A program made the translations under genes and the position numbers. From Deltaproteobacteria bacterium (lineage in GTDB: Bacteria > Desulfobacterota > Syntrophia > Syntrophales > UBA5619): a stretch of 10,954 bases of DNA. The first letter of the stretch is position 1. Each line of letters opens with the position of its first letter. The stretch is taken from contig JAPLJY010000256.1 of NCBI GenBank assembly GCA_026388345.1, forward strand, positions 1 through 10,954, read 5' to 3'. Below the pieces are notes generated by a model. The model did not search any database. It saw nothing but the letters and a program-made list of their open reading frames with translations, and was not told where the DNA came from. Positions 7,543 through 10,954 of the stretch are shown piece after piece.

Positions 7543-7556
7543 GGGAAGGCCTTCCC
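7543..7556. promoter_or_regulatory. Perfect 14-bp palindrome after the receiver gene
   Basis: GGGAAGGCCTTCCC is a perfect inverted repeat beginning six bases after the receiver gene stop. It has no unpaired loop and no T tract follows, so it is a poor intrinsic terminator; a dimer-binding site for a regulator is an alternative. It lies about 270-285 bp upstream of the predicted transcription start at 7827, within reach of a sigma-54 enhancer protein. Confidence 0.4.
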
Positions 7557-7563
7557 GCTATTG

Positions 7564-7593
7564 TGGAATGGATTCCATAGTTACGATTCCATA
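7564..7593. promoter_or_regulatory. Half-site cluster, possible activator binding site
   Basis: The 9-mer GATTCCATA occurs twice as a direct repeat (7571-7579 and 7585-7593, 14-base period), and the first copy also forms an inverted repeat with TGGAAT at 7564-7569 (TGGAATGGATTCCA). Three half-sites in 30 bases of non-coding DNA, about 235-260 bp upstream of the sigma-54 promoter's start point, look like an upstream activator sequence. The binding protein is unknown; the NtrC-family regulator in this window is the natural candidate. Confidence 0.4.
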
Positions 7594-7643
7594 ACCACCG
7601 CCAAATGAGCGCAGACCTCCTCAATTTTTATACTATTGACGCA

Positions 7644-7764
7644 TTCGTAAAAAGCCTGAAAACCCCCTGCTCTGTCATTCCCGTGAAAACGGGAATCCAG
7701 TCTTTCCGGGTAGTTTCATACTCTCTGGATTCCCGCCTGCGCGGGAATGACGACTTTTTGCGAA
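7644..7764. repeat. MITE-like palindromic repeat element
   Basis: A nested inverted-repeat element of about 121 bp. Outer ends TTCGTAAAAAG (7644-7654) and CTTTTTGCGAA (7754-7764) are complementary with one mismatch. Inside are two 27-base arms, GTCATTCCCG...CGGGAATCCAG (7674-7700) and CTGGATTCCCGC...GCGGGAATGAC (7725-7751), each a hairpin on its own and complementary to each other, separated by 24 bases. It encodes no transposase. Similar GTCATTCC/GGAATGAC repeats are scattered through many proteobacterial genomes and are commonly mistaken for short ORFs. It sits between the candidate activator sites and the gvpA promoter. Confidence 0.75.
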
Positions 7765-7800
7765 CCAAGCCTGTCACGGCAGATCCTGTTCCCGGAGGGC

Positions 7801-7816
7801 TGGCATAGCTATTGCT
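7801..7816 (+). promoter_or_regulatory. Sigma-54 (-24/-12) promoter of the gvpA operon
   Basis: TGGCAT-N5-TTGCT matches the sigma-54 consensus TGGCAC-N5-TTGCW at all but one listed base, with the required GG (7802-7803) and GC (7814-7815) exactly ten bases apart. Transcription would start near 7827, giving a leader of about 64 bases before the first gvpA ATG at 7891. The presence of an NtrC-family activator in the same cluster supports it. No equally good -24/-12 match was seen before the other genes, so this promoter may drive gvpA through gvpN. Confidence 0.82.
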
Positions 7817-7826
7817 CTATAGGAGT

Positions 7827-7838
7827 CAGGCATGCCTG
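7827..7838. promoter_or_regulatory. Perfect 12-bp palindrome at the predicted transcription start
   Basis: CAGGCATGCCTG is a perfect inverted repeat that begins at the base predicted as +1 of the sigma-54 promoter. It could be an operator overlapping the start site or a small hairpin protecting the 5' end of the abundant gvpA message. No bound protein can be named. Confidence 0.35.
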
Positions 7839-7890
7839 GTGAAGGTTTTCGGAAAGATCATTATAACAAAAGGAAGAGGAGGAATTAGCG

Positions 7891-8109
7891 ATGGCAAAGG
7901 TACAAAAATCAACGGATTCTTCGAGTTTGGCGGAAGTTGTCGACCGGATCCTCGACAAGGGTATCGTGATCGATGCGTGGGTGAAGGTATCTCTGGTCGG
8001 TATCGAGCTGCTTTCCATCGAAGCGAGAGTCGTGATTGCATCGGTTGAGACCTATCTCAAGTACGCCGAGGCGATTGGTTTGACAGCCAGTGCGGCTGCT
8101 CCGGCATAA
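7891..8109 (+). CDS. gvpA: Gas vesicle structural protein GvpA (copy 1)
   Basis: The major shell protein, 72 residues, which polymerises into the ribs of the gas-permeable vesicle wall. It carries the conserved GvpA core in order: [20 protein letters not shown] (11-30), [20 protein letters not shown] (31-50), then [13 protein letters not shown] (51-63), and a short Ala-rich end. The length is normal for GvpA. The strong ribosome binding site AGGAGG (7877-7882) lies 8 bases before the ATG. It is the first gene after the sigma-54 promoter. The protein is identical to copy 2 at 8523. It is followed at once by a stem-loop and a GvpC-like gene, the arrangement seen in other gas vesicle operons. 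Confidence 0.99.
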
Positions 8110-8125
8110 GACTAATTGAAGGATG

Positions 8126-8165
8126 CCCATGGGGCGGGGGCTTTTGATGCGCCCGCTTTCATGGG
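8126..8165 (+). other. Intercistronic RNA stem-loop after gvpA copy 1
   Basis: CCCATG (8126-8131) pairs with CATGGG (8160-8165); an inner stem GCGGG (8134-8138) pairs with CCCGC (8152-8156), extended by two further pairs across one mismatch and closed by a 7-base T-rich loop. No T tract follows, so it should slow or protect rather than end transcription. The same hairpin, with compensatory base changes, follows gvpA copy 2. A likely role is to stabilise the gvpA end of the message and lower expression of the next gene. Confidence 0.65.
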
Positions 8166-8201
8166 TGTGCCGGTTTCAGAAGAAGGTGAGGGGAAATCAC
8201 T

Positions 8202-8492
8202 ATGGGTAATTTGACCGATGATATGACCCGTTTACGCGGGGAGGTAGACGCCTTGCGGAGTGATCGAGGGGCGCTGATGCAGGATCTGGCGCGCGGGGCC
8301 AAGGATCTGGCCTCTTCGGTTTCAGCCATGCAGTCTGGCTTTGCCGCCGCCCACGCCACGATGGCCAAGAAAACCGGGAGAGCGCGGGCCACGTATGTAT
8401 CAAGGATCAAGAGGCAGGTCGGCCGAATGAGAAAAGAGAACGTCGCCGACCTTGCGGGGGCATCTCAGGTTTGGTTCGGTAAAGCAAAATAA
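8202..8492 (+). CDS. Short GvpC-like coiled-coil protein
   Basis: A 96-residue, charged, mostly helical protein without signal peptide or membrane segment. It is the short paralogue of the protein at 8836: the first 14 residues (MGNLTDDMTRLRGE) are identical, similarity continues through FAAAH and MAKKT, and the end (RQV.RMRKENVADLAGA) matches RQVMDLRKETADDLMGA of the long form. Compared with the long form it lacks exactly 33 residues after MAKKT-GRAR and stops after the homologous helix with only a short FGKAK end. Position after gvpA and the 33-residue unit suggest GvpC, the outer-surface protein that stiffens the shell, but there is no long run of repeats as in cyanobacterial GvpC, so the name is tentative. 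GAGGGG upstream serves as ribosome binding site. A stem-loop separates it from gvpA. Confidence 0.9.
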   Translation: MGNLTDDMTRLRGEVDALRSDRGALMQDLARGAKDLASSVSAMQSGFAAAHATMAKKTGRARATYVSRIKRQVGRMRKENVADLAGASQVWFGKAK

Positions 8493-8522
8493 ACAATCAA
8501 ATACAAAAAGGAGGAAATTAAG

Positions 8523-8741
8523 ATGGCTAAAGTACAGAAATCAACGGATTCTTCGAGTTTGGCGGAAGTTGTCGACCGGATCCTCGACAAAGGAATCGTG
8601 ATCGATGCCTGGGTGAAAGTATCTCTGGTCGGCATTGAGCTGCTTTCCATCGAAGCGAGAGTGGTGATTGCTTCGGTTGAGACCTACCTCAAGTACGCTG
8701 AGGCGATTGGCCTGACGGCCAGTGCCGCAGCTCCGGCCTGA
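8523..8741 (+). CDS. gvpA: Gas vesicle structural protein GvpA (copy 2)
   Basis: Second gene for the shell protein, with the same 72 residues as copy 1. By codon comparison 19 sense codons differ and every change is silent; the stop codon also differs (TGA against TAA). AGGAGG (8509-8514) lies 8 bases before the ATG, only 30 bases after the short GvpC-like gene. The silent divergence with no replacement shows strong purifying selection and an old duplication kept for dose. It opens the second unit of a gvpA/GvpC-like tandem repeat and is followed by a terminator-like hairpin. Confidence 0.99.
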
Positions 8742-8757
8742 GAGTAAGGTAATGACG

Positions 8758-8805
8758 CCTGTGGGGCGGGGGCTTTTTTAGCCTCCGCCTTGCACAGGTT
8801 TTTTT
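8758..8805 (+). terminator. Rho-independent terminator or attenuator after gvpA copy 2
   Basis: CCTGTG (8758-8763) pairs with CACAGG (8793-8798). The inner stem GCGGGGGC (8766-8773) pairs over all eight positions with GCCTCCGC (8781-8788), one of them a G-U pair, around a 7-base loop. Seven T residues (8799-8805) follow at once, the classic form of an intrinsic terminator. Since the next gene starts 31 bases later with no clear promoter of its own, partial termination that sets the ratio of shell to accessory protein is more likely than a full stop. Confidence 0.8.
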
Positions 8806-8835
8806 CGCGTTCGGAGAAGGTGAAGGAGAATCATC

Positions 8836-9672
8836 ATGGGCAATTTGACCGATGACATGACGCGCTTGCGTGGAGAAATAGAGACCCTGCGGGGTGCGCG
8901 AGAGGCGCTGCTGCAGGAGATGGCGCGGGATACCAGGGAGCTGACCACCGCGGTTTCGGCCACGCAGGCTTATTTCGCCGCCGCCCACACCGTGATGGCG
9001 AAAAAGACCAGTGAGGAGCGGGAGGCCTTTGTGGCCGCCATGATCGATGAGGTCAACTCCCTGCTGGGTGAATTTTCCAGAGACCGGAATGATAAGGCCC
9101 GGAAGGGAAGACATGACCGGGAAGTCTTTCTCTCAGAAATGAGAAGACAGGTTATGGACCTGCGCAAAGAGACGGCGGACGACCTGATGGGGGCCCGGCT
9201 TGCCTGGCGCGGCGAGAGTCCCGGAAAGTCCCGGCCCGTTCCGATGAAGAAGAAACAGGTCGTCGTAAAACCCATATTGCCCCCGGTGGAAGCAGCACCG
9301 AAGAAGACGGCGGCAGCGCCTGAGATCAAGACAGAAAAGCTACCGGTCACATTCAAGGAACCACTGAAAAAAGAACCGGTGGTCGTAAAACCCATACCGC
9401 CCCCGGTGGAAGCAGCACGGAAGAAGACGATCGTCGCGGCGCCTGAGATCAAGGCGGAAAAGCCTCCGGTCAAATTCATGGAACCGCTGAAAAAAGAAGA
9501 AAAAAAGAAGGCGGTTGCAGCGCCTGAAGCCCCGGCGGTCGAAACCCCCAAGGTCAAGGCCCCGCCGTTGGTCAGCGCCTCCAAGCCGCCGTTTCTGAAG
9601 AGCAAAGAGAAGAGCTGGCTGGATGAAAAACCAGCCAAAGCCGGGATCAGGGCGAAACGGGGCAGGAAATAG
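8836..9672 (+). CDS. Long GvpC-like protein with 33-residue unit and Lys/Pro-rich tail
   Basis: A 278-residue cytosolic protein in two parts. Residues 1-126 are charged and helical and correspond to the short paralogue at 8202, with an added 33-residue unit (63-95). Three segments can be aligned by a shared opening E-x-[FL]-[LV]-x-x-M: from 23 (EALLQEM), 63 (EAFVAAM) and 96 (EVFLSEM). Thirty-three residues is the repeat length of cyanobacterial GvpC, which forms helices across the shell ribs. Residues about 127-278 are Lys/Pro/Ala/Val rich, probably extended, and hold two direct repeats (142-181 and 182-222) beginning VVVKPI and ending EPLKKE. The protein ends with a basic AKRGRK. The start is supported by AAGGAG (8823-8828). 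Synteny (gvpA, this gene, then gvpN) also favours GvpC. The family name is tentative; the coding call is firm. Confidence 0.92.
   Translation: MGNLTDDMTRLRGEIETLRGAREALLQEMARDTRELTTAVSATQAYFAAAHTVMAKKTSEEREAFVAAMIDEVNSLLGEFSRDRNDKARKGRHDREVFLSEMRRQVMDLRKETADDLMGARLAWRGESPGKSRPVPMKKKQVVVKPILPPVEAAPKKTAAAPEIKTEKLPVTFKEPLKKEPVVVKPIPPPVEAARKKTIVAAPEIKAEKPPVKFMEPLKKEEKKKAVAAPEAPAVETPKVKAPPLVSASKPPFLKSKEKSWLDEKPAKAGIRAKRGRK
9022..9120 (+). repeat. 33-residue (99-bp) unit present only in the long GvpC-like gene
   Basis: This in-frame 99-bp segment encodes residues 63-95 (EAFVAAMIDEV to KGRHDR). When the long and short GvpC-like proteins are aligned, flanking sequence resumes exactly on both sides: SEER matches GRAR before it, and EVFLSEMRRQV matches ATYVSRIKRQV after it. 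A whole repeat unit has been gained or lost. Confidence 0.7.
9259..9501 (+). repeat. Two tandem repeats in the tail of the long GvpC-like gene
   Basis: Units 9259-9378 (40 codons) and 9379-9501 (41 codons) share GTCGTAAAACCCATA, CCCCCGGTGGAAGCAGCAC, CCTGAGATCAAG and GAACC(A/G)CTGAAAAAAGAA. The encoded repeats both run VVVKPI-x-PPVEAA...APEIK...EPLKKE. High DNA identity points to a fairly recent duplication inside the tail. Confidence 0.85.
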
Positions 9673-9746: not shown

Positions 9747-9869
9747 GTCATCGTCCGGCTTGACCGGACGATCCAGTGTTTTTTGGATTCCCCGATTGCC
9801 CCTATCTGTCATTCCTCCGGAGGCCGGAATCCAGAATCGGACTGGATGCCGGATCAAGTCCGGCATGAC
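9747..9869. repeat. Composite palindromic repeats in the spacer before the zinc-protein gene
   Basis: This 240-bp spacer (9673-9912) holds no gene but is mostly repeat DNA of the same class as the element at 7644. One hairpin arm runs GTCAT...ATCCAG (9747-9776) around CGTCCGG/CCGGACG and is followed by a remnant TGGATTCCCCG (9784-9794). A fuller element then follows: arm GTCATTCC...GGAATCCAG (9808-9834), a 7-base spacer, and arm CTGGATGCCGGA...TCCGGCATGAC (9842-9869). The mixture suggests one element landed in or next to an older one. Confidence 0.65.
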
Positions 9870-9912
9870 AATTGATATGTTTAATTGCCGGAGTAATAAT
9901 TGAGGGGTTGAC

Positions 9913-10296
9913 ATGAAGAACGCGCGTTTAAGCCCTAACCCGGTGGTATTTGAGGAACTGACTTGCGCCTTTTGCGGTGGCCGGGGCAGAGATCCTTTCG
10001 ATATCATGTCTTCCCTTTCCACATGTTGTGTTTGTGGGGGAAGCGGCAAAGTATTGGTCAAGGCGCCGGCTGTCGCCTGCGCTCATTGCCGGGGAACAGG
10101 GGCCGTTAAAACCCTTACATGTACCACCTGCGGCGGCAGGGGCTTCGTCCCCCAAACCCTGTCGCCAACTGTATCATGTCCTCTATGTAAAGGTTCGGGC
10201 GATGACGCCTCGGCCCCGGCAATGGCTTGTCTGAAATGCCGCGGGACCGGATGGATGATGGAACAATTCAGGAAGGAGAACAGAGTTCATGAATAA
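9913..10296 (+). CDS. DnaJ-type zinc-finger protein with six CxxCxGxG motifs
   Basis: A 127-residue protein made almost only of DnaJ cysteine-rich motifs: CAFCGGRG (18-25), CCVCGGSG (38-45), CAHCRGTG (56-63), CTTCGGRG (70-77), CPLCKGSG (89-96) and CLKCRGTG (106-113). DnaJ itself has four such motifs that bind two zinc ions; six could form three sites. There is no J domain (no HPD motif) and no C-terminal substrate domain, so it cannot stimulate DnaK in the usual way and may act as a zinc-dependent holdase or protein-binding adaptor. GAGGGG lies a few bases before the ATG. Its last eight bases overlap the gvpN start, tying it to vesicle assembly. Its precise role is unknown. Confidence 0.92.
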
Positions 10297-10954
10297 GAAT
10301 GCCGTAAGAATCGTCAGCACATCAACCGTGCGCGAATCGGCCGGGGAAGACAGCGTTCAACCCGAACCCAGCGACAGCTTTATTTCTTCTCCCTATGTGG
10401 AGCAGGTCACGGAGCGGGCCCTGGCCTACCTGGTGGCCGGTTATCCCGTCCATTTTTCCGGCGTGGCAGGAACGGGAAAGACGACCATGGCCTTTCACGT
10501 GGCGTCCAAACTGGGACGGCCCGTCACCCTGGTCCACGGGGACGATGAATTCGGCAGTTCCGATCTGGTGGGCAGGGACTCCGGATACCGGAAAAACAAA
10601 GTTGTCGACAATTATATCCACTCGGTCCTGAAGACGGAGGAAGAGATGAAAAGCCTCTGGGTGGACAACCGGTTGACCACGGCCTGTGAGCGCGGGGAGG
10701 TCCTCATTTATGACGAGTTCAACCGCTCCCGGCCGGAGGCCAACAACGCGCTCCTCAGCGTCCTATCCGAGGGGATTCTGAACCTGCCGAAACTGCGCCG
10801 CTCCGGGGAAGGATACATGGCCGTGCATCCCGAGTTCCGGGCGATCTTTACCTCCAACCCGGAAGAATACGCGGGAGTCCACAAGACCCAGGACGCCCTG
10901 ATAGACCGCCTGATTACCATACACTTAGAACACTATGATCGGGATACGGAAATC
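10289..10954 (+). CDS. gvpN: Gas vesicle protein GvpN, MoxR-like AAA+ ATPase (3' partial)
   Basis: The open frame runs from the ATG at 10289 to the end of the window, giving 222 residues without a stop. After a variable N-terminus, the family start [18 protein letters not shown] (31-48) is clear. The AAA+ motifs are Walker A GVAGTGKT (58-65), Walker [10 protein letters not shown] (138-146), the region [12 protein letters not shown] (151-162), sensor-type TSNPEEYAG (188-196), and [12 protein letters not shown] (202-213) near the cut end. GvpN is an ATPase that helps the initial bicone grow into a full-width vesicle; mutants make small or few vesicles. The start overlaps the zinc-protein gene by eight bases. 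The preceding GAAGGAGAA is the ribosome binding site. Probably well over half of the usual length is present. Confidence 0.97.

Follow-up and report, generated by a model that had tools for sequence, protein, structure and literature searches.

The gas vesicle locus

The window analysed in this study is the whole stretch of 10,954 nucleotides of contig JAPLJY010000256.1, from a deltaproteobacterium of the Syntrophales (Desulfobacterota). An NtrC-type regulator gene, cut by the window start, is followed by genes for an Hsp20-like protein, a CDC48-family AAA ATPase, two GvpF/L-like proteins, a histidine-kinase-like protein, and a response-regulator-like protein, and then by gvpA, a short rod gene (S), a second gvpA copy, a long rod gene (L), a gene for a CxxCxGxG zinc protein, and gvpN. 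Curated cut-offs were passed by CDC48, GvpA (as PRK09371), GvpN, and the zinc domain, and the matches of the NtrC-type regulator, Hsp20, and GvpF/L were below them; the names of the histidine-kinase-like and response-regulator-like proteins, taken from sequence, are putative. The features of interest are the following:

7891..8109, plus strand: gvpA copy 1, shell protein of 72 aa, upstream of S (PF00741, E 2e-17)
8121..8171, plus strand: predicted GC-rich stem-loop in the spacer from gvpA copy 1 to S (fold of 8110-8201, z -3.62, 0/200 shuffles as stable)
8202..8492, plus strand: S, short GvpC-like rod of 96 aa, an open reading frame ending in the motif D-L-x-G-A-x(3)-W
8523..8741, plus strand: gvpA copy 2 (PF00741), its protein identical to that of copy 1
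8757..8799, plus strand: predicted GC-rich stem-loop followed by a T-run, in the spacer from gvpA copy 2 to L (fold of 8742-8835, z -4.85, 0/200 shuffles as stable)
8836..9672, plus strand: L, long GvpC-like rod of 278 aa, an open reading frame with a K/P/A-rich tail after the rod
9028..9126, plus strand: additional unit of 33 residues in L (65-97, beginning with F65 and stopping just before F98), placed by the S/L alignment gap and the match to rod HMM A1
9214..9669, plus strand: tail of L (residues 127-278), K/P/A-rich in composition, with two 40-41-residue repeats at 9245-9498
9913..10296, plus strand: CxxCxGxG zinc protein of the DnaJ central-domain type, between L and gvpN (PF00684, E 2.6e-10, over the cut-off)
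10289..10954, plus strand: gvpN, cut by the window end (TIGR02640, E 6e-86, above the cut-off)

The two gvpA copies of the window encode identical proteins and carry synonymous differences in 20 of their 72 codons, and 60 positions of this GvpA are identical to a 71-residue GvpA of Nostoc. The initial annotation had placed S and L between gvpA and gvpN, as two lengths side by side, and this arrangement was found both in the window and in the clusters of relatives.

Two rods that differ by one 33-residue unit

It had been proposed that the two proteins align end to end except for a single stretch of 33 residues, and this was confirmed by a single BLASTP alignment, in which residues 1-95 of S were matched to residues 1-128 of L with 52 of the 128 columns identical and one gap of 33 (pairwise E 1e-28). 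This match goes beyond chance, since each protein belongs to a family of fixed rod length. The length of the gap stood, but its exact placement slides, from L 63-95 in the initial annotation to L 67-99 in BLAST; the natural extra unit corresponds to L residues 65-97, because F65 and F98 stand 33 residues apart, and rod HMM A1 aligned the S proteins of relatives as positions 1-68 plus 98-127. The motif E-x-[FL]-[LV]-x-x-M, described in the initial annotation as opening the three helical segments, does occur three times in L, at residues 23, 63, and 96, but a spacing of 33 holds only for the second pair, the first being 40 apart. The rod family has an N-terminal cap (MGNLTDDMTRL) and a C-terminal motif (GA..W).

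The long helices assumed for both proteins were supported by AlphaFold2 prediction, which gave for S two helices at residues 2-55 and 59-92 (mean pLDDT 92.3, pTM 0.54) and for L two helices at 2-55 and 59-125 followed by a low-confidence tail (mean pLDDT 66.5, pTM 0.32), with ten-residue mean pLDDT values of 79-97 over residues 1-120 of L and of 41-56 after residue 130. In these predictions helix 2 grows from 34 residues in S to 67 in L, and both proteins take the extended alpha-helical form expected of a GvpC. A PDB sequence search with L and a Foldseek search of the L model against the PDB gave no match, and the hydrophobic moments of the four helices were no better than those of shuffled sequences (P 0.06-0.40). 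Helix 1 favours a heptad-like angle of 101.5-103 degrees, which was not significant against shuffles.

Conservation of the pair in related loci

A genome scan yielded ten related loci in Syntrophaceae, Syntrophobacterales, Geobacter-like, and other deltaproteobacterial records. The order gvpA-S-gvpA-L-gvpN is complete in the window and in loci L001, L002, L003, and L005, and it was also found in L090, L093, L094, L095, L099, and L106, the S proteins of the first five of these being 87 aa long. In L008 and L009, S is the sole rod gene between gvpA and gvpN, and L010 carries S without L in the stretch examined. Locus L006 carries L, and the S of this genome lies on a separate contig (L123); the L007 contig breaks off within L, and the stretch of L004 begins at L. 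The zinc protein was recognised clearly in L001, L002, and L005, was matched by a 16-residue fragment alone in L003, and was seen in neither L004 nor L006.

Among 395 genomes of the phylum, 16 matched the rod profile (E <=0.001) and 28 carried gvpN (E <=1e-60), 27 of them over the curated cut-off. Fifteen of the 16 rod-profile genomes were among these 28, and nine more gvpN genomes matched the rod HMM in the slot between gvpA and gvpN (E <=0.01); the remaining four (G045, G100, G118, and G134) had no rod HMM match in the slot stretch examined. The sixteenth rod-profile genome, G387 (E 5e-4), is absent from the gvpN genomes and was set aside as probably a chance match. Slot proteins of gvpN genomes range from 72 to 450 aa, with two such genes in some slots, and GvpA-type genes (PF00741) were found in 12 of the 12 genomes tested, with 2 to 6 matches each. 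Among viral contigs, 70 stretches matched the search pattern, none of which encoded a relative of S or L.

In 12 of the 13 same-genome pairs with both rods complete, L exceeds S by exactly 33 residues. Counted to the conserved W, S and L measure 91 and 124 residues in the window, L001, L002, L003, L005, L006/L123, and L111/L119, and 84 and 117 residues in L090, L093, L094, L095, and L099; the members of L006/L123 and of L111/L119 lie on different contigs of one genome, and the count for L006 leaves out 24 extra residues before its cap. The exception is L106, the second cluster of genome G364, with 69 against 146 residues to the W.

Length variation within the two classes was followed in the best 120 of the 166 relatives of S and the best 120 of the 207 relatives of L recovered by protein search, and in the 120 listed of the 551 proteins recovered by an eleven-rod profile search that scored 7998 candidates. 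Among the matches listed, 94 of the 120 S relatives have exactly 96 aa, and 108 of the 120 L-search proteins, the L of the window included, have residue 119 as the first of the G[AS]...W end motif. Relative to the S of the window, no rod indel was found in 114 of the 120 S relatives listed, and the six indels observed all remove 7 residues; relative to the L of the window, 128 of 159 L-type proteins are free of rod indels, and the other 31 comprise 28 losses of 7 residues, one gain of 7 (at 113), one loss of 15 (at 65), and one loss of 3 (at 33). All 34 losses of 7 fall at residues 27-37, within helix 1, and they represent few events, because 26 of them belong to the 39 extra entries of the eleven-rod profile search. 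Thus, no stepping by 33 exists inside either class, and the step of 33 divides the two classes. Mean identity over 300 random pairs was 0.80 within S and 0.76 within L.

The total length of L behaves differently from its rod: 86 of the 120 L-search proteins listed fall in three bins of about 210, 237, and 264 aa (19, 40, and 27 proteins), which step by about 27 residues, and whole-protein length was therefore rejected as evidence for a step of 33. These steps sit in the tail, since the rod end is fixed. The expectation that homologue lengths would step by 33 was in this way upheld in part: lengths are not free and the step from S to L is 33, but the usual indel within a class is 7 residues and most of the variation in the total length of L lies in its tail.

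Repeat units in the wider slot family

Periodicity was assessed by self-comparison, at lags of 5-61, of 21 slot proteins picked and trimmed by hand. The strongest lag was 33 in 11 of them, 40 in four, 7 in three (window L, window S, and L113), and 44, 51, and 29 in single proteins. Where lag 33 was strongest, it always exceeded lags 11, 22, and 44, and its z score reached 13.3 among the proteins compared. In the L of the window, lag 33 came second (z 3.2) to lag 7 (z 3.3), and in S its z was 0.5. Tandem 33-residue repeats, which are a feature of cyanobacterial GvpC, were thus evident in distant members of the slot and weak in the window. The F anchors of L109 lie at residues 57, 90, 123, and 156, all 33 apart, and those of L114 at 25, 65, 98, 131, 171, and 204, with spacings of 40, 33, 33, 40, and 33; other F residues of the same pattern occur inside the units of both. 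Judged by their sequences, the wider slot proteins make up a family of 33-residue repeats in which some units have 40, which the window protein alone would not prove.

Possible relationship with cyanobacterial GvpC

The Pfam and NCBIfam libraries hold a haloarchaeal GvpC model. In the Pfam search, run to E 10, neither S nor L matched PF01304 or had any GvpC model listed, and no GvpC model was found among the NCBIfam matches of S and L at E up to 1. PF01304 was over the cut-off in 0 of the 395 genomes of the phylum; sub-threshold matches occurred in 97 genomes, one of them (positions 3-33 of 33, E 0.735) in the slot gene of G211 (L109). Neither S nor L thus gave a PF01304 match over the cut-off, and the membership in the GvpC family put forward in the initial annotation was, for the cyanobacterial family, not borne out by profile search. 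Nor did the name GvpC appear on any of the matches listed for S, L, or the eleven-rod profile, most of which were unnamed or called "hypothetical protein", and a few carried unrelated names.

With a profile built from four Nostoc units and two published consensus lines, the best of 901 plus-strand ORFs was L109 (E 0.0098), followed at E 0.5-0.8 by others that included two non-slot genes; S and L were absent at E 1 from this search. This cyanobacterial profile was also compared with a family unit profile of 17 rows (four misregistered rows of 21 left out) and with an L109 profile of four units (the fifth left out). Over all 33 phases, the F-anchored phase came first in each comparison, scoring 8.8 for family against GvpC (next 4.3), 12.5 for L109 against GvpC (next 6.1), and 20.9 for family against L109 (next 5.3), a phase that is not independent, since the F anchors were chosen after seeing the HMM alignment. 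Against a null in which the 11-residue pattern is preserved, P was 0.12, 0.018, and 0.0003, respectively, for the F-anchored phase, and 0.33, 0.06, and 0.0003 with the phase left free.

The unit of cyanobacterial GvpC is described as having L12, R19, and F33 as invariant positions (PMC5259702). In the best-scoring register, the window unit 65-97 carries L, R, and F at these positions. Across the 17 family units, position 19 is H in 12 and R in five, and L occupies position 12 in nine; the F anchor is there by choice, and P is 0.12 under the helix-pattern null.

Among 362 stop-to-stop plasmid ORFs, the top three matches of rod HMM A1 were the slot protein of Spartinivicinus (E 3.6e-10), that of Methylosinus (E 0.0017), and GvpC of Nostoc (E 0.014), the best reversed decoy having E 0.052; the slot proteins of Methylocella and Octadecabacter were outside the first six matches. 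The family unit profile placed the Methylocella slot protein first (E 0.019; best decoy 0.11) and gave E 0.3 for Nostoc GvpC in a search of five proteins, and the cyanobacterial profile missed all proteobacterial slot proteins, the best score being that of Spartinivicinus (E 3). A chain may therefore be drawn from the window rods through L109 to GvpC in which every step is modest. This weak, in-register evidence suggests a likely kinship of the S and L rods with cyanobacterial GvpC, and part of the resemblance could come from helix pattern and composition.

Origin of the one-unit difference

A tree of 29 rods was computed on 91 columns after the extra unit had been removed from L. It comprised two main groups, in both of which S and L formed separate branches, and 7 of its 26 inner branches were weak. 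The S/L label requires two changes on this tree, and none of 200 bootstrap trees had one change; a single S clade was rejected by the AU test (p 0.00038, and 5e-6 without L008 and L009). The plain reading of these sequences would be that the one-unit difference originated twice, although gene conversion between neighbouring S and L genes could imitate this pattern. Whole-unit gain or loss, as first suggested for the cluster, is supported by the tandem units of distant slot homologues, by the 12 of 13 pairs differing by 33, and by the double split on the tree.

A single origin, in which a gvpA-rod tandem duplication accompanied by one gain or loss of a unit was later disguised by S-L conversion, is less probable than two origins and still deserves serious weight; it would be compatible with a GvpC-type function. 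In its favour, the tree rests on few columns once the unit is removed, and the gvpA copies of L003 and L005, compared after leaving out the misaligned pairs of L010 and L096, differ within a genome by 8 and 10 synonymous codons versus 18-46 and 24-46 between genomes; these low differences within genomes suggest gvpA conversion there. In the window, however, the copies differ by 20 codons from each other and by 18 from L003, so there is no sign of conversion, and S fell on one side in 0 of the 200 bootstrap trees, in line with the rejection of one S clade. Moreover, other slot proteins contain larger numbers of units, the F anchors lying 33 or 40 residues apart, and unit change was therefore not one single event in the wider family.

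A proposed function for the two rods

Taken together, the evidence leads us to propose, with a probability of roughly three in four, that S and L are proteobacterial GvpC-type rods that strengthen the gas vesicle shell, their helix 2 lying as one or two 33-residue units along the GvpA rib. Published models place one 33-residue GvpC unit along the rib over about four GvpA monomers, at 49.5 vs 50.8 Angstrom (PMC9994262, PMC10185304), and Glu52 and Glu59 of GvpA touch GvpC in the contact model (PMC9994262). These glutamates correspond to positions 53 and 60 of the window GvpA. Each rod gene is preceded by its own gvpA copy. Helix 1 (residues 2-55), a predicted helix, would be common to both rods, and helix 2, with one unit in S and two in L, would run along the rib at one unit per about four GvpA monomers, a binding mode and stoichiometry that we infer, so that S would cover about four GvpA and L about eight. 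If one unit spans about four GvpA, helix 2 could therefore lengthen in register only by a whole unit. The tail of L would be disordered and point away from the shell. The two rod lengths probably help to cover ribs of differing curvature, and may thus tune vesicle width and collapse pressure.

The exact step of 33, found also in related genomes, hints that such rods may grow only in steps that fit the shell. A stronger form of this idea is that the shell dictates a length rule for the GvpC-type rods of Desulfobacterota, in which helix 2 changes by whole units, because 33 residues make nine helical turns and span four GvpA, and helix 1 changes by heptads, and that the device of one and two units, each with its own gvpA, was built twice as a ruler of vesicle diameter. 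We regard this extended version as tentative and, as a whole, rather doubtful.

The predicted stem-loops add a possible level of regulation. Secondary structures were predicted in gvpA-rod spacers, with 0-6 of 200 shuffles equally stable in each of 12 spacers. When 10 sequences from five genomes were aligned, 2 of the 18 consensus pairs of the stem-loop had changed on both sides, and the covariation term was small (-0.13). A stem-loop 3' of gvpA would probably reduce expression of the rod relative to gvpA, and the predicted structures would fit much GvpA alongside little GvpC.

An unlikely alternative is that S and L are not clamps on the outer surface but coiled-coil assembly factors, such as partners of GvpN or factors of the tip or seam, the period of 33 being generic 11-residue helix geometry. 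The heptad-like angle of helix 1, although not significant against shuffles, would suit such a role, as would the confinement of 34/34 losses of 7 residues to that helix, as in dimeric coiled coils, the weak residue-specific likeness to cyanobacterial GvpC, and the proximity of the rod genes to gvpN. Against this reading, lag 33 outscored lags 11, 22, and 44 in all 11 slot proteins that had it as their strongest lag, the exact difference of 33 in 12 of 13 pairs is a regularity not called for by a generic coiled coil, and the slot is the same as that of annotated GvpC. It is highly improbable that L alone is structural and S a truncated, decaying copy, as the missing unit and tail might suggest, because S is conserved as much as L (0.80 vs 0.76), 114 of its 120 listed relatives are free of internal indels, and in L008 and L009 it stands alone between gvpA and gvpN.

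Should S and L be GvpC-type rods, the family would be of use beyond its annotation. Knowledge of GvpC on the rib comes largely from one cyanobacterial system, in which the GvpC-GvpC junctions are described as unresolved (PMC10185304). The natural series of unit numbers, together with a recurring pair that differs by one unit, lends itself to testing the register of 33 residues per four GvpA, and rods of graded unit number could serve to strengthen engineered gas vesicles to different degrees. The proposal also provides a likely name for a family whose listed members, where named, are mostly "hypothetical protein".

Comparison with known gas vesicle systems

Among the titles listed by the literature searches, none dealt with the S/L family or with two rods one unit apart in such bacteria. 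Vesicles have been produced in E. coli from genes of Desulfobacterium vacuolatum (PMC10344784). In Serratia sp. ATCC 39006, deletion of gvpC is reported to lower the collapse pressure from 0.4334 to 0.1435 MPa, and the same report describes GvpC as conserved in seven proteobacteria (PMC4982088). Serratia GvpC thus strengthens vesicles; no Serratia record was present in the plasmid search with GvpN or among the ten related loci. The deltaproteobacterial GvpC of that report may perhaps be a member of the S/L family.

Another close counterpart is the slot protein of plasmid pA of Spartinivicinus ruber, a protein annotated with 97 aa as "hypothetical protein" that likewise lies between gvpA and gvpN. 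Its stop-to-stop frame was the best rod HMM match of the 362 ORFs, with 34.7 bits, and the annotated protein alone scored 16.9 bits. It differs from S and L in being a single gene, in having no tail, and in belonging to the Gammaproteobacteria.

Cyanobacterial GvpC (PF01304; Anabaena, Calothrix, Nostoc) resembles the window rods in its 33-residue helical units and in the slot between gvpA and gvpN, which is occupied by an annotated gvpC in Nostoc; in this slot, S and L occupy the position of a GvpC in the broad functional sense. The cyanobacterial landmarks F, L4, F11, L12, R19, and F33 are partly common, the window unit having F, M4, L11, L12, and R19, followed by F98, whereas Q26 and L30 are replaced by G and R. 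Unlike cyanobacterial GvpC, the window family carries the MGNLTDDMTRL cap, the GA..W end motif, and, in L, the K/P/A-rich tail.

A parallel to two rods in one organism comes from Planktothrix, whose strains can carry gvpC28 together with gvpC20, and some also gvpC16 (PMC4349496; length variants also in PMC5259702), and in which GvpC size was found to correlate negatively with critical pressure (PMC4349496). As described for gvpC16, gvpC20, and gvpC28, more than one GvpC length is therefore possible per strain. In contrast to Planktothrix, the window family keeps its own gvpA before each length, a fixed gene order, and a difference of one unit in 12 of 13 pairs.

Length variation in the slot rods and their tails

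The 33-residue rule, by which the long rod (L) exceeds the short rod (S) of the same genome by exactly one 33-residue unit, had a sole exception, found in a genome carrying two gvp clusters (G364; L099 and L106), in the second of which (L106) S was shortened and L contained odd-sized inserts. In another locus (L103), the protein encoded in the slot between gvpA and gvpN (7550-8317, oriented), the start of which was partly masked, displayed on self-comparison a very regular repeat of 44 residues and not 33 (z 17.8). The tail of L harbored two repeats of 40-41 residues (window 9245-9498) and, since total L lengths clustered near 210, 237, and 264 aa among the 120 L matches listed, this tail seems to gain and lose pieces of about 27 residues.

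For the Spartinivicinus slot gene (L136 4448-4873), the profile built from the rod family gave 34.7 bits for the stop-to-stop frame versus 16.9 for the annotated 97-aa protein; this twofold score suggests that the annotated start may be too late.

Apparent terminal domains of slot rods in other loci

Slot rods with apparent C-terminal helix-hairpin-helix/DUF4332-like domain (oriented coordinates)
L098 7802-8980, Pfam matches
L104 7160-8227, Pfam matches
L102 6468-7436, by eye

Slot rods with winged-helix-like end domain (oriented coordinates)
L109 7505-8617, by eye
L096 7154-8506, by eye
L108 3-743, by eye

The first three rods seem to carry a helix-hairpin-helix/DUF4332-like domain fused to the C-terminus, the Pfam scores for L098 and L104 being mostly near or below the cut-off. 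The terminal domain of the other three looks like a winged helix, which is surprising in a shell protein.

Elements surrounding the gvpA-rod block

Between L and gvpN, the window encodes the following:
9913-10296, a small zinc protein of the CxxCxGxG type that lacks a J domain

Such a protein occupied the same interval in many related gvp clusters. Short inverted-repeat stretches were also observed on both sides of the gvpA-S-gvpA-L block (window about 7675-7755 and 9750-9872), with pieces such as CATTCCCG...CGGGAATCCAG...CTGGATTCCCGC...GCGGGAATGAC, and, by eye, these look like REP- or MITE-like palindromes.
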